In this document: piece after piece, positions 3,321-37,001 of the stretch
How the letters are laid out: each line of letters begins with the position of its first letter
Numbering within the stretch: position 1 is the stretch's first letter
Origin: Aotearoamyces nothofagi
Lineage: Eukaryota; Ascomycota; Leotiomycetes; Leotiales; Tympanidaceae
Assembly: GCA_015345905.1 (NCBI GenBank)
Contig: JADDTR010000011.1
Coordinates: forward strand, 496,001 to 560,000
Reading direction: 5' to 3'
Length of the DNA: 64,000 nt
Program-made: the position numbers and the translations under genes
The notes under the pieces: model-generated
Told to the model about the DNA's origin: nothing
Databases searched by the model: none
What the model saw: only the letters and a program-made list of their open reading frames with translations

Positions 3321-4168
3321 CTTGCTAGATTTTTGAGTATTTGGAACAATGGTCTATCGTAATAACAACAAGAGAATTGGAGTTATAAGAAAAAGGAAGC
3401 CGCGAGGGGAGAAGTCATGAGAGATAAGTCATGAGAGAACCTTAGTCATCCGGCAGCTTGAAGTAGAAGCGGGGCACACCAGTCCCGCTTTCGGAATATG
3501 TATTCGTTAACGCCTTTGTTTCTTTTGTTTATATGATATCTTATGAGGTGATGTATACGATTAGAATGCTCTTAGCATATACTAATAGCTTGATAGGGGT
3601 TTCTTATTTGTTATATCAGTGCCACATGAATAGCTTACCGGGCGAGTCACGTTCTGTATGATGCCTTCTCCGTAAGGCACTCACAGGCCCCGCACTTAGC
3701 TCTGAGTACAGATCACCTTTTACAACTATATATAGCCTTCTTGACAATGAGTACGTTCTTACGCTGTATAGAATATTATATGACTTGTGGCTAAGACAAT
3801 TATAAAATCCGAACCCACTGATATTTGAGTGAGACAAATTCTAAAAATAATAAATCTCTGCTAAAATATATATTCATCTAATAAAAATATAGCTAGTTGA
3901 AATTAGAAATACATTTATTTCGTCGTTATAATATACAAGGTACAAAAGGCAAAAAAGGAATACTGAAGTGAATAGCTAGTGGATTTTTATATATTCATTA
4001 AGTATTAAGTGATTAAAAGCAAAAGGAAATTGTAAATATTGTACTGGCTTAATTGTCTATACCCTCTTAATATATCTATTAGGTTAGCACGGTAAGGTAC
4101 TCTGCAGTTGTAAACTCGCTTATGAAACTATAAAAATAAAAAAAATAAGAAAAAAATTACGGAATGTC
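3321..4168. other. Gene-free, increasingly AT-rich intergenic DNA
   Basis: No credible ORF. A short tandem copy of an AGTCATGAGAGA-type unit lies near 3413-3440. From about 3,840 to 4,160 the sequence is strongly A+T-rich with runs of TATA, and it ends in the A-tract that acts as a T-run terminator for the tRNA on the other strand. The AT-rich part could be decayed repeat DNA, but no element is recognisable. Confidence 0.5.
4150..4156 (-). terminator. Pol III T-run terminator of tRNA-Ser
   Basis: Seven consecutive T residues on the minus strand begin 13 nt past the 3' end of the tRNA. Further T tracts follow, as expected for RNA polymerase III termination. Confidence 0.65.
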
Positions 4169-4319
4169 CGACGTGAGCAGGATTTGAACTATTTGAATGT
4201 TAGTATTAATGTTGCTTTAATGCTTAGATGATGGATGACTAACCCTGCGCCTCCGAGGAGATGTGATAACTTGTGAATAAATTCTAGTCACACGCATTAG
4301 ACCGCTCTGCCATCACGCC
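4169..4319 (-). tRNA. tRNA-Ser (anticodon AGA) with two apparent introns
   Basis: Read from 4319 down to 4169. Acceptor GGCGTGA (4319-4313) pairs with TCACGTC (4176-4170) with one G-T wobble, and the discriminator is G4169. The D arm holds A box TGGCAGAGCGG (4312-4302). The anticodon stem is TGTGA/TCACA with anticodon AGA at 4285-4283. A 14-nt intron (4281-4268) lies after position 37, the normal endonuclease site. The variable arm CTCCTCGGAG is serine-type. The T stem GCAGG (4248-4244) is separated from loop TTCAAAT and CCTGC (4188-4177) by 55 nt (4243-4189). That segment starts GTTAGT, carries TACTAAC at 4205-4199 and ends ATAG. Without both inserts the RNA is 82 nt, the usual tRNA-Ser size. 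The B-box core GTTCAAATCC survives because the insert ends in AG. The gene may be active or a pseudogene. Confidence 0.8.
4180..4190 (-). promoter_or_regulatory. B-box-like element formed across the T-arm insert boundary
   Basis: AGTTCAAATCC differs from the usual GGTTCAAATCC only at the first base. The insert's terminal AG therefore rebuilds most of the B box in the DNA, about 110 bp from the A box, so Pol III recognition is still conceivable. Confidence 0.5.
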
Positions 4320-4751
4320 TTGTTGGTTGTTGAAGATTTCCGCTTATCCTATACTATTAAACCATTAGGGCAAATATTAGAACTTTCCGTCCATGTAAGC
4401 GAAACGGTCACACGCGCCCTTAAGCCTACTGGAGCAAGCACAGTACTATATCAGGGTATACATACGGCAGATACGCGTTAAATTAGCTAGAACTATCCGT
4501 TAGGACCATCTAGTCATCAATGGCTGCTTTTGATTAAAGGCCAAACTGTATTTGCTCTATGGCCGGTGGAGATGGATTAAAGGTGGTATCAGTTCCACTC
4601 GTCAGCTACTCTAGGGGAGAGGCCATTCTAGGACGTCGAGAGAGCCCCGACACTTTTGATAAATCTCTTGAACGCTTTGATCCTATTCACAATAAGTCGT
4701 GCTAGGTTTCATCATATCCTGTCAACTCAGCGCTCAACCTTCTCATACTAC

Positions 4752-4757
4752 ACGTGT
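4752..4757. promoter_or_regulatory. CACGTG site upstream of PPN1 (distal)
   Basis: CACGTG within the palindrome ACACGTGT, about 440 bp before the PPN1 ATG. This is the core bound by Pho4/NUC-1-type bHLH factors; use here is inferred. Confidence 0.4.
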
Positions 4758-5048
4758 AATAATACTCTGCCCGGATTGGTCGGTCACATTCTTAAAAGCG
4801 CAACCTTGACGGCCTCCCAAGCCCGCTGATCATATCGTGTGATACGTAGGAATCGCGAGCGCGGTATTATAAGTGGTGAGCCTTGCTGCAGCCAGAATTC
4901 CTTTTCTGGCGAGTACCACCTGTAGCATCAACAGCATCTGCGAAGCCTCTCTGCACTGTCTTGTCTTGAGCTCAGGTTTGGCGCAAACCGCTGCATCAGG
5001 ATTGGCGCCGATACCGCCTCGCGTACAGGACCCTACCTGCCTTATCAT

Positions 5049-5054
5049 CACGTG
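5049..5054. promoter_or_regulatory. CACGTG site upstream of PPN1 (proximal)
   Basis: CACGTGTT about 140 bp before the PPN1 ATG. In budding yeast PPN1 (PHM5) is a phosphate-starvation gene controlled by Pho4 through CACGTG/T, so this is a good candidate NUC-1/Pho4 site. Confidence 0.5.
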
Positions 5055-5192
5055 TTTCACTTCGAAAAAAGGGAAACAACATTACGGCGTTGCCCCGAGC
5101 TCCTGCCAGAAATATAAAGCCGCGCCTTTAATGACGTTGGTCTCACTGCGGGGATGTGCACACTTACCTAGATCTCCTCGCTCACCTTGAAA

Positions 5193-7510
5193 ATGCTTTC
5201 TTTCATAATCTTATTGGTAGCTACGTTCTTCATACTCGGGCATACCTCGCCCGTTGGACAGGTTCAAGCCGGCCTGCACACAGCGTCAGAGCACGAGACC
5301 ACAGAGCTTGCCACAGCTCCTAGGAAGCTTCATGGTCGATTCCTACAGATCACAGGCTAGTTACATATTAGAATTGCTTAAATACCTATACTAACCTTAT
5401 ACTAGATCTTCATTCTGACCAATTCTACAAGATCCACTCTTCGACAGAAGCCAAAAAAGCATGCCACCGCGGCAATGGACCCGCCGGTATCTATGGTACT
5501 GAGACCTCCGACTGTGACTCGCCGTTGTCATTAATAAATGCTACTTTCAAATGGATTGAGAATAACCTAAAAGACTCTGTCGACTTTGTTATATGGACTG
5601 GCGATAACGCACGCCATGACAGCGACGAGAAGATACCTCGAAGCGAAGAGGAGGTACTGGGTATTAACAAATTCGTTGCGGAGAAGTTCGCTGAGATTTG
5701 GGGCGATGGTAAGCACGAGACAGGCTCTCCTGCGGATATGACAGTTCCTGTCATCTCTACGTTTGGAAACAATGACATTATTCCGCATAATATTCTGCTG
5801 GCAGGTCCTAACAAGTGGCTGAGAAGCTACATGAGCATATGGAAGAACTTTATACCGGAAGAGCAAAGACACGGCTTTGAAAGAGGCGGCTGGTATTATG
5901 TTGAGGTTATACCCCACAAGCTTGCTGTCTTTAGTCTCAATACGCTTTATTTCTTTGATCACAATTCGGCTGTGGATGGCTGTCGTTCGAAATCCGAACC
6001 AGGATTTGAGCATATGGAGTGGCTACGAATCAACTTGGAGTCCATGCGCCAGCGTGGAATGAAAGCAATTATGATGGGCCATGTGCCCCCTGCACGAACT
6101 GACAGCAAGCAACTCTGGGATGAGACGTGCTGGCAGAAATATACTCTGTGGTTGAAGCAGTATCGTGATGTTGTATTGGCAGGCTTTTACGGTCATATGA
6201 ATATCGACCATTTCCTTCTGCAAGATACAAAGGCTATTGACATCAAGGTGATGGAAGGCTATGAAGTATCCACGAGAGAACATCTGGATGATGAGCTCAC
6301 CATTGAATCTGCAGCTGACTATCTGGAAGAGCTTCGAAATGGGTGGTCAAAGTTACCTGATCCGTCCGAGGCACTCGAGGATGGTGAAGATAATACTAAC
6401 ATAATGAAAAGAAGCCTCGAGAAGGGGAAAAAGCCGAAAAAAGACAAAGCTTGGAAGAAGTTCGGCGGCCCGTGGGGCGAACGCTTTCAAATAACTACCA
6501 TCAGCCCAAGCGTTGTGCCGAACTATTTCCCTACACTGCGCGTCATAGAGTACAACATTACTGGTCTGGATCCTAGTAACACGTGGAATGCGGCATCTAT
6601 TGCTCGCAATGGAGCACCGACTTCTCCGTCCGTAAATGACGGTGATGTTTCTATCCAGGCCTCGCGGCTAAAGTCTAGAGACGAGAGTGGAGTGCTATAC
6701 GTTACAGACGAAAATGAATCCGCTGGTAAAAAGAAAAAGAAGAAACACGATGATGAGAATAAGAAGAAAAAGAAAAAGAAGAAGCCAAAGAAGCCAAAAG
6801 ATCCTAACCTCACCGTCCCTCCGCCACCTTCGAAGTCAACGCCTCCCGGCCCAGCATATTCTCCACAGACTCTCACTCTTCTCGGTTATACACAGTACTT
6901 CGCAAACCTCACTTACATAAACAATGAGCTTTCGGAACCTAAAACCCTCGAGGAGGAAATTGGTGCCGATGGCTGGTACGAAGGTGGTAAAGTTAAGAGC
7001 AAGCATCCGAAGACCAAGAAGTTCAACTATGACGTCGAGTATAGTACTTTTAATGACTCGAAGGGGTTTCAGTTGAAAGATTTGACTGTAATGAGCTATT
7101 TGGAGCTTGCACACCGTATAGGGCAGTACGAGGCGGCAAAGGGTGATAACGTCGTCTGGGACGAGGATGAGGATGATGACAATCCTGATGAGACACCTGG
7201 CCCGTCAAGGTTATCAACGATACTGGACAATATCCAGCATTATGCTACTGTCATAAACGATTGGTGTTCATTCCGACCTACCGAAGATACCCTCGCATCT
7301 ACTGAAGAGGATGGCGAAAGCCTCGAGGTTGCGGAGAAGAAGAAAAAGGGACACAAGAAGAAAAATAATCACAAAAGAAAGAACCGAGCATGGCTCACAT
7401 TCGTCCGGCGGGCATTTGTCGGCACTTTGGGCGAAGAGGAAGTGCAGAACTTTCAGCTGGCACGAGAACAGCCCGTTGAAAAATCTGCCGATTATGACGA
7501 AGAGTTGTGA
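5193..7510 (+). CDS. PPN1: Vacuolar endopolyphosphatase
   Basis: Cleaves inorganic polyphosphate internally; the family acts in the vacuole lumen. Exons 5193-5355 and 5406-7510 give 755 aa. The intron begins GC (GCTAGT), has an exact TACTAAC and ends CTAG. Using GC is what joins FLQIT to DLHSDQFY and restores the metallophosphatase D-x-H at residues 55-57. Residues 1-16 (LSFIILLVATFFIL) are a signal-anchor-like helix. Later metal and catalytic motifs are GDNARHD (120-126), GNND (175-178), GHVPP (His 280) and GHMN (His 318). A Lys-rich low-complexity segment lies near residues 495-520, and a second basic-acidic tract is near the C-terminus. Length and motifs fit fungal PPN1. Upstream CACGTG sites suggest phosphate control. 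Confidence 0.92.
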
Positions 7511-35837: not shown

Positions 35838-37001
35838 ATGACTGCAGAAGATATGGAAGCATCAGAGTCAGGTGTTGATGATGGGGCTGTGGGAGGTCCT
35901 GGCGCTCCAACACCACTATCTGCTTTGGAGGTATGCACACACTCTTACATGGGTCTTCAGAGCCAGTGTCTTACTTTCATGTTGTATCTAGGGCGTTGCT
36001 GGGCTTTCAAAACGCGATATTCAGCTCATAGTCGATGGCGGCTACAATACAGTCGAGTCCGTTGCTTACACACCACGACGGATTCTAGAACAAATTAAAG
36101 GTATCTCAGAGCAAAAAGCAACTAAGATATTGGCAGAAGGTTAGGATATTATAACACTTTGAATGATTTCGGTACTGACAGGACAACAGCATCAAAGCTC
36201 GTTCCTATGGGGTTTACCACTGCGACGGAGATGCACCAGCGGAGAAGCGAGTTAATATCAATCACCACTGGCTCGAAACAACTTGACACGTTGCTAGCGG
36301 GTGGAATTGAGACGGGTTCAGTCACGGAGATATTTGGAGAGTTCAGAACCGGCAAGAGTCAAATATGCCATACTCTGGCTGTCACTTGCCAACTTCCTTT
36401 CGACATGGGTGGTGGCGAAGGAAAATGCCTGTATATTGACACTGAAGGAACATTTCGACCAGTGCGATGTTTGGCGGTGGCTAATAGATATGGTCTTTCC
36501 GGCGAAGAAGTGCTTGACAATGTGGCATATGCTAGGGCTTACAATTCCGATCATCAGCTTCAGCTTCTCCAGCAAGCAGCAGCGATGATGTGTGAAACAC
36601 GGTTCTCTCTTCTCATTGTTGACAGTGCAACATCTCTTTACCGTACAGATTTTGTAGGAAGAGGTGAGCTATCGTCCAGACAGACACATTTGGCGAAGTT
36701 TCTTAGGACACTTCAACGCCTTGCAGATGAGTTTGGCATAGCCGTGGTCATTACAAACCAAGTCGTAGCTCAGGTTGATGGCGGGCCTAGTGCAATGTTC
36801 AATCCCGATCCCAAGAAACCAATTGGTGGCAACATTATTGCGCATGCCTCAACTACGAGATTGAGTCTGAAGAAAGGTAGAGGAGAAACGAGAATTTGCA
36901 AAATCTACGACAGTCCATGCTTACCGGAGAGCGACTGCTTATTTGCGATTAACGAGGATGGAATTGGAGACCCTAGCCCCAAAGACTTGGAGAAGGACTA
37001 A
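35838..37001 (+). CDS. RAD51: DNA recombinase Rad51
   Basis: RecA-family ATPase that forms the nucleoprotein filament for homologous strand exchange. Exons: 35838-35930, 35992-36139 and 36190-37001, 350 aa. The short acidic N-terminus [17 protein letters not shown] leads to the helix-hairpin-helix domain ([37 protein letters not shown]). The polymerisation linker [12 protein letters not shown] follows. Walker A GEFRTGKS is at about 130-137, Walker B LLIVD at about 222-226. DNA-binding loops contain [10 protein letters not shown] and [11 protein letters not shown]-terminal [20 protein letters not shown] is typical. Length matches fungal Rad51. NUP120 follows on the same strand 490 bp downstream. 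Confidence 0.97.

Follow-up and report, generated by a model that had tools for sequence, protein, structure and literature searches.

The tRNA-Ser(AGA) gene and its two introns

The window (the whole 64,000-nt stretch of Aotearoamyces nothofagi DNA that was analysed) contains a gene for tRNA-Ser(AGA) on the minus strand (Table 1). When both introns are left out, the gene yields a class II tRNA of 82 nt with a complete cloverleaf. The acceptor stem (GGCGTGA/TCACGTC) has one G-T pair. As a sequence, the gene has an A box, a B box, a T-run terminator and a cloverleaf that is intact once spliced.

The two introns are of different types. One is an ordinary tRNA intron, which occupies the canonical position 37/38. 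The other is located at 53/54 and resembles introns of protein-coding genes. The original prediction described it as a 55-nt minus-strand insert (4243-4189) that starts with GTTAGT and carries TACTAAC followed by 10 nt ending in ATAG, and this proved exact on re-reading. The predicted placement between the T-stem strand GCAGG and the loop TTCAAAT, with removal restoring GCAGG-TTCAAAT-CCTGC, was borne out. As predicted, the gene has its acceptor stem, A box, variable arm and T-runs, and the B-box core is indeed rebuilt by the AG of the insert, since the G with which this core begins is supplied by the final base of the intron. The predicted product of 82 nt is reached, but not by the predicted route: removal of the insert leaves 96 nt, and the 14-nt intron at 37/38 (4281-4268), which had gone unmentioned, must also be removed.

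Table 1. Features of the window and further loci of the genome. Positions without a prefix refer to the window.
Feature	Position	Strand	Description	Basis
tRNA-Ser(AGA) gene	4169..4319	minus	151 nt, three exons and two introns	sequence, deletion test, ARAGORN
Ser(AGA) exon 1	4282..4319	minus	38 nt; tRNA positions 1-37; anticodon AGA at 4285-4283	
Ser(AGA) ordinary 37/38 tRNA intron	4268..4281	minus	14 nt, TTTATTCACAAGTT	flanks form the anticodon stem TGTGA/TCACA
Ser(AGA) exon 2	4244..4267	minus	24 nt; position 38, anticodon 3' stem, variable arm, T-stem 5' strand GCAGG	
Spliceosomal-type GT-AG intron at 53/54	4189..4243	minus	55 nt; donor GTTAGT, branch TACTAAC, 3' end ATAG	sequence, deletion test, signal count
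Ser(AGA) exon 3	4169..4188	minus	20 nt; T loop TTCAAAT, T-stem 3' strand, acceptor 3' strand, discriminator G	
A box of Ser(AGA)	4301..4312	minus	TGGCAGAGCGGT	sequence
B-box core of Ser(AGA) in the DNA	4181..4189	minus	GTTCAAATC	sequence
First downstream T-run	4150..4156	minus	T7, likely Pol III terminator	sequence
Upstream motif	4342..4347	minus	ATAAGC, common to other tRNA genes of the genome	
rad51 intron 1	35931-35991		61 nt; donor GTATGC	
rad51 intron 2	36140-36189		50 nt; donor GTTAGG, TACTGAC and 10 nt to the end	
U6 gene (L086)	G000:C3:1443403-1443509			
U6 gene (L087)	G000:C1:1441107-1441217			
Three tRNA-Ile(AAT) genes (L012, L013, L015)	G000:C22:218611-219418		within about 800 bases	
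Oversize tRNA-like match (L028)	G000:C23:266621-266764		67-nt insert at 37/38	
Weak tRNA-like match (L077)	G000:C1:874765-874849		24 bits, no clear tRNA	

A scan of the window with Rfam at gathering level and with ARAGORN gave zero matches. ARAGORN makes no call on the genomic sequence of the gene, but reports tRNA-Ser(AGA) for the 82-nt form. When the 55-nt insert is removed and the 37/38 intron is retained, the call is Ser(AGA) or Asn(ATT), depending on the settings.

Two further properties of the insert may be mentioned. The donor GTTAGT (4238-4243) is perfectly complementary to ACTAAC of the branch motif (4199-4204), and both are paired in the predicted fold. A 7-nt direct repeat spans the 3' splice site (4180-4197), with TTCAAATAG at the intron end and TTCAAATCC at the exon start. 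This repeat is perhaps a trace of the origin of the intron.

Interrupted tRNA genes in the genome

The genome assembly (25.5 Mb, 55 contigs, completeness not given) was surveyed with the Rfam tRNA model. At least 39 matches were obtained at E-values up to 10, from 63 scored of 791 candidates; the window gene is not among them. Reading these 39 matches by eye, 26 are ordinary tRNA genes, two are odd, and 11 have a GT-AG insert outside position 37/38. Thus, other tRNA genes with GT-AG inserts, for which the original prediction had proposed a search, do exist, and together with the window gene there are at least 12 of them. The 12 genes were selected from oversize or weak tRNA matches in which the GT-AG was first noticed by eye.

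The inserts lie in, or adjoin, the D or the T arm. By our own count of positions, those on the D-arm side are found at 9/10 (Leu(AAG)), 10/11 (Cys(GCA)), 18/19 (Thr(TGT) and two Lys(CTT) genes), 24/25 (initiator Met(CAT) and Ala(AGC)) and 26/27 (Gln(CTG)). Those in the T arm are found at 51/52 (the second Ser(AGA) gene and Asn(GTT)), 53/54 (Ser(AGA)-1, the window gene) and 57/58 (Ala(TGC)). Seven of the 12 genes have a second intron, which is of the 37/38 type and 7-38 nt long. Introns at 37/38 are also found in 18 of the 22 ordinary tRNA genes (out of 26) that were parsed.

Across the genome, the pattern CTAACN{2,28}AGTTCRANNC gave 25 matches (64 for the reversed-pattern control), among which only the window gene restores a T stem of 5/5 and an acceptor stem of 7/7 pairs. 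A pattern built on the Ser(AGA) anticodon gave eight matches (control: three), including the two Ser(AGA) genes of the set of 12. CTAAY combined with GGTTCRANYCC gave four matches (control: five), two being the already known Ser-2 and Asn genes. A close second copy of the window gene was not found in the genome.

Few tRNA genes were detected in this genome. Typed searches for Phe, His, Asp, Val, Trp, Pro(AGG) and Gln(TTG) returned only Pro(AGG), which by eye has an intron of the 37/38 type. Genes for Phe, His, Asp, Val and Trp were encountered neither among the listed Rfam tRNA matches nor in the typed searches. Perhaps they are hidden because they are interrupted as well.

The survey also returned some unusual loci. 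For one of the two odd matches (L028), ARAGORN reports the anticodon CTA (amber); its insert has the complementary heptamers CATGCTG and CAGCATG near its two ends. It is the one case among the oversize matches for which no GT-AG solution was found. The other odd match (L077) is listed in Table 1. The three clustered tRNA-Ile(AAT) genes have exons that look alike by eye and different 37/38 introns.

Splice signals

All 12 inserts are GT-AG and have a length of 50-67 nt. The donors are GTAAGT (four genes), GTAAGC (three genes) and GTTAGT, GTATGT, GTCAGT, GTAAGA and GTATGG (one gene each). A branch motif of the type YTNAY is found near the 3' end of every insert, with 9-13 nt after its A (11 nt for TACTAAC in the window gene). 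The inserts of Ser-1 and Lys-2 have a second branch-type motif further upstream, and the distances refer to the nearest motif. The strict form CTAAY occurs in 10 of the 12 inserts, while 1.74 are expected from shuffled sequences (P = 1.5e-7).

For comparison of length and donor with mRNA introns, the two introns of rad51, which is encoded in the window, were used. Their placement was assisted by homologs, and the spliced protein is 92% identical to that of two relatives. The second rad51 intron closely resembles the insert of the window tRNA gene with respect to donor, branch motif, distance and length. In database comparisons, the window RAD51 shares 99% identity with the Erysiphe pulchra protein (96% of the query covered) and 91-97% with RAD51 of other ascomycete classes. 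For a PUF6-like protein, the named best matches include Pseudogymnoascus and Phlyctema (72-75% identity). Both sets of matches suggest an ascomycete related to Leotiomycetes.

Restoration of tRNAs by removal of the inserts

A deletion test was applied to each gene. Every segment of 35-99 nt was removed (3,639 to 6,499 deletions per gene, 0.11-0.65% of them GT-AG), and the remainder was scored only by tRNA stems and conserved bases. In all 12 genes, a GT-AG deletion exists that restores a tRNA. In 10 of them, a GT-AG deletion reaches or ties the best score, compared to about 0.4 expected from tie sizes and GT-AG fractions. For the window gene (5,264 deletions, 0.47% GT-AG), two deletions tie for the best score (28.4), and one of them is the GT-AG deletion; the next GT-AG deletion has a score of 19.1.

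The strength of this test varies between genes. The tie sets comprise 2-5 deletions in eight of the ten top-scoring genes, and 33 and 34 deletions in the two Lys genes, which thus add little. In Thr(TGT) and Ala(AGC), one and four deletions, respectively, outscore the GT-AG deletion. When the coarser score of ARAGORN itself was applied, the GT-AG deletion tied for best in six of the nine genes scored, and for Ala(TGC) no deletion yielded a tRNA.

ARAGORN assigned the right isotype to the mature forms of all 12 genes, which were cut according to our own parse. For the genomic forms, it returned nothing in eight cases and a wrong isotype in four. Some details speak against individual genes. Ala(TGC) has a split B box (57/58) and an acceptor mismatch, and there is no ARAGORN call when its 37/38 intron is retained. 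In each of the two Lys genes, the anticodon stem contains a T-T mismatch.

U6 snRNA genes

In other fungi, U6 snRNA is a Pol III product, and fungal U6 genes with mRNA-type introns are known, for example, in Schizosaccharomyces pombe. The U6 model gave four matches in the genome, two of which are above the family cut-off. Each of these two clear U6 genes seems to be interrupted by a GC-AG intron, given that by eye they share the layout GAAACG-[GCAAGT...CTAAC...AG]-ATACA, located before the conserved core (ACAGA region). The inserts have 48 and 47 nt. Their bounds were read against what we take to be the conserved U6 sequence; the second copy (L087) has ATACATAG in place of the expected ATACAGAG.

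The U6 introns known from other fungi such as S. pombe resemble those described here in that a spliceosomal intron resides in a Pol III gene. They differ in that U6 is a single snRNA gene whose product is itself part of the spliceosome, so that neither a tRNA nor a second splicing system per transcript is involved. In addition, the U6 donor of this genome is GC, in contrast to GT in the tRNA inserts.

Which polymerase makes the precursor

The sequence data make it highly probable that the 55-nt insert is a spliceosomal intron of the U2 type, that the nuclear tRNA-Ser(AGA) gene which carries it is functional, and that at least 12 genes of the genome are built in this way. The spliced tRNAs might be real and yet be derived from Pol II transcripts (by read-through or from dedicated transcripts) rather than from Pol III precursors. 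In favour of this alternative, the least improbable of the three, is the usual coupling of the spliceosome to Pol II; we nevertheless judge it improbable. The A box, the B box, the T-runs and the upstream motif match those of the ordinary tRNA genes of the genome, and both clear U6 genes appear to be interrupted as well.

A run of four or more T is found downstream of all 12 genes. Within the inserts, T5 or longer does not occur. T4 occurs in two of the 12 (2.8 expected), so that avoidance of T-runs is not clear beyond the absence of T5. The upstream motif ATAA[GCA][CGA], at -22 to -48, is present in 17 of 23 tRNA genes without an insert and in 16% of shuffled sequences. It is also found in six of the seven interrupted genes that have enough upstream sequence. 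It should be noted that this motif was picked after the sequences had been inspected.

Which enzyme removes the insert

Ordinary eukaryotic tRNA introns are located at 37/38 and are removed by the TSEN/Sen endonuclease and a ligase. They resemble the inserts in that they interrupt tRNA genes, and the two types coexist in seven of the 12 genes; they differ in position and signals. Conceivably, the tRNA splicing endonuclease excises the inserts as noncanonical tRNA introns of the kind known from archaea, nucleomorphs and the red alga Cyanidioschyzon, and the GT-AG is incidental. In these systems, introns occur in the D and T arms, a gene may have more than one, and 53/54 is a known archaeal site, according to the relevant part of a 2014 review (PMC4090602). 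The abundance of 37/38 introns in this fungus would also fit.

We regard this possibility as quite unlikely. It predicts neither GT-AG in all 12 genes nor a nearly fixed branch distance. As characterised in that part of the review, the introns concerned have a bulge-helix-bulge or are very short (PMC4090602), while the present inserts have GT-AG and a branch motif and lack such a centre. The 4-bp centre of a bulge-helix-bulge would have one to three of four pairs in our genes (mean 1.8 in the one register assessed, about 1.5 by chance), three in the window gene and never four.

Are the interrupted genes functional

The original prediction left room for a pseudogene interrupted by chance. Applied to all 12 genes, this would mean chance insertions into dead copies, with working copies elsewhere in the genome. 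In eukaryotes, with the exception of nucleomorphs and Cyanidioschyzon, a tRNA gene with a D- or T-arm insert is usually taken to be a pseudogene, as stated in the corresponding section of the 2014 review (PMC4090602). Insert-free genes do exist for Asn, Leu(AAG), Ala(AGC) and Ala(TGC). We consider this the least probable of the three alternatives, as it requires that needed genes are dead, yet no working copy of these was found in searches that give lower bounds, and the stems and conserved bases of the mature forms are largely intact.

No cell can dispense with the initiator tRNA. In 25.5 Mb, a pattern for its signature from the anticodon to the T arm is matched exactly once (control: none), in the interrupted gene; the pattern is blind to copies with an interruption within this stretch. 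A search with the 12 spliced sequences found no uninterrupted gene for Ser(AGA), Cys, initiator Met, Lys(CTT), Thr(TGT) or Gln(CTG). That search represents a lower bound, because diverged copies can escape, as illustrated by the isoacceptor Ser(CGA), which was not listed.

The Asn paralog without insert is identical at 69 of 74 positions and the Leu(AAG) paralog at 80 of 82. Both align without a gap across the junction and are natural empty sites.

The other option of the original prediction, an mRNA-type intron in a Pol III gene, has strong support, because 11 more tRNA genes share the architecture. Among them are the sole initiator gene and, with the window gene, all genes for Ser(AGA), Cys, Lys(CTT), Thr(TGT) and Gln(CTG) that these lower-bound searches found. 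The suggested introner-like gain is not supported, since similarity among the inserts does not exceed that of shuffled sequences (the best pair has 72% identity, which is reached by 52 of 150 shuffles), many near-identical copies were not encountered, and the 231-nt region around the insert of the window gene matches the genome only once.

Relation to known systems

In the open-licence full texts of PubMed Central, a scope outside which most subscription papers and preprints fall, no report of spliceosomal introns in nuclear tRNA genes was found among the papers listed. A 2026 review, in the part devoted to this topic, sets tRNA splicing apart as spliceosome-independent (PMC13149111). The tRNAscan-SE 2.0 paper gives, in its treatment of introns, one intron as the limit for eukaryotic tRNA genes (PMC8450103).

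The nearest printed precedent is the presence of spliceosomal introns in lichen rDNA, one of which can be spliced by yeast from a Pol I transcript (PMC8527467). As in our case, these introns are short (57 bp in Cladonia grayi), spliceosomal, and located in a structural RNA that is not made by Pol II. They differ in that the transcript is a large RNA made by Pol I; the term "tRNA" is absent from the main text of that paper (PMC8527467).

Proposed maturation and implications

From these data, the following order of events may be proposed. Pol III would transcribe a precursor with two introns by means of the A box and the B box, the core of the latter being completed by the last G of the intron. 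The spliceosome would recognise GUUAGU, UACUAAC and AG and excise the 55 nt by its two-step reaction. The T arm, on which RNase P, tRNase Z and the tRNA endonuclease depend, would thereby be restored. In a last step, the endonuclease would act together with the ligase to take out the 14-nt intron at 37/38.

At the level of sequence, the evidence strongly favours functional tRNA genes that contain spliceosomal introns. Teaching keeps tRNA introns and mRNA introns apart, each with enzymes of their own, and here both types are found in one gene. This would permit direct study of how the spliceosome finds a Pol III transcript, of the order of splicing, and of the relation between tRNA supply and spliceosome capacity.

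The failure of ARAGORN on the genomic forms represents a blind spot of tRNA detection. As nothing or a wrong isotype was returned for all 12, fungal genomes that seemingly lack tRNA genes may hide such introns.

It seems likely that nuclear tRNA genes of this fungus have been widely invaded by spliceosomal introns, with 12 genes as a lower bound, that two unrelated splicing systems act in turn, and that initiation of translation is spliceosome-dependent. Because such introns appear to be present in at least 12 tRNA genes, including the only initiator gene found, the making of tRNAs in this fungus probably depends on the mRNA splicing machinery.
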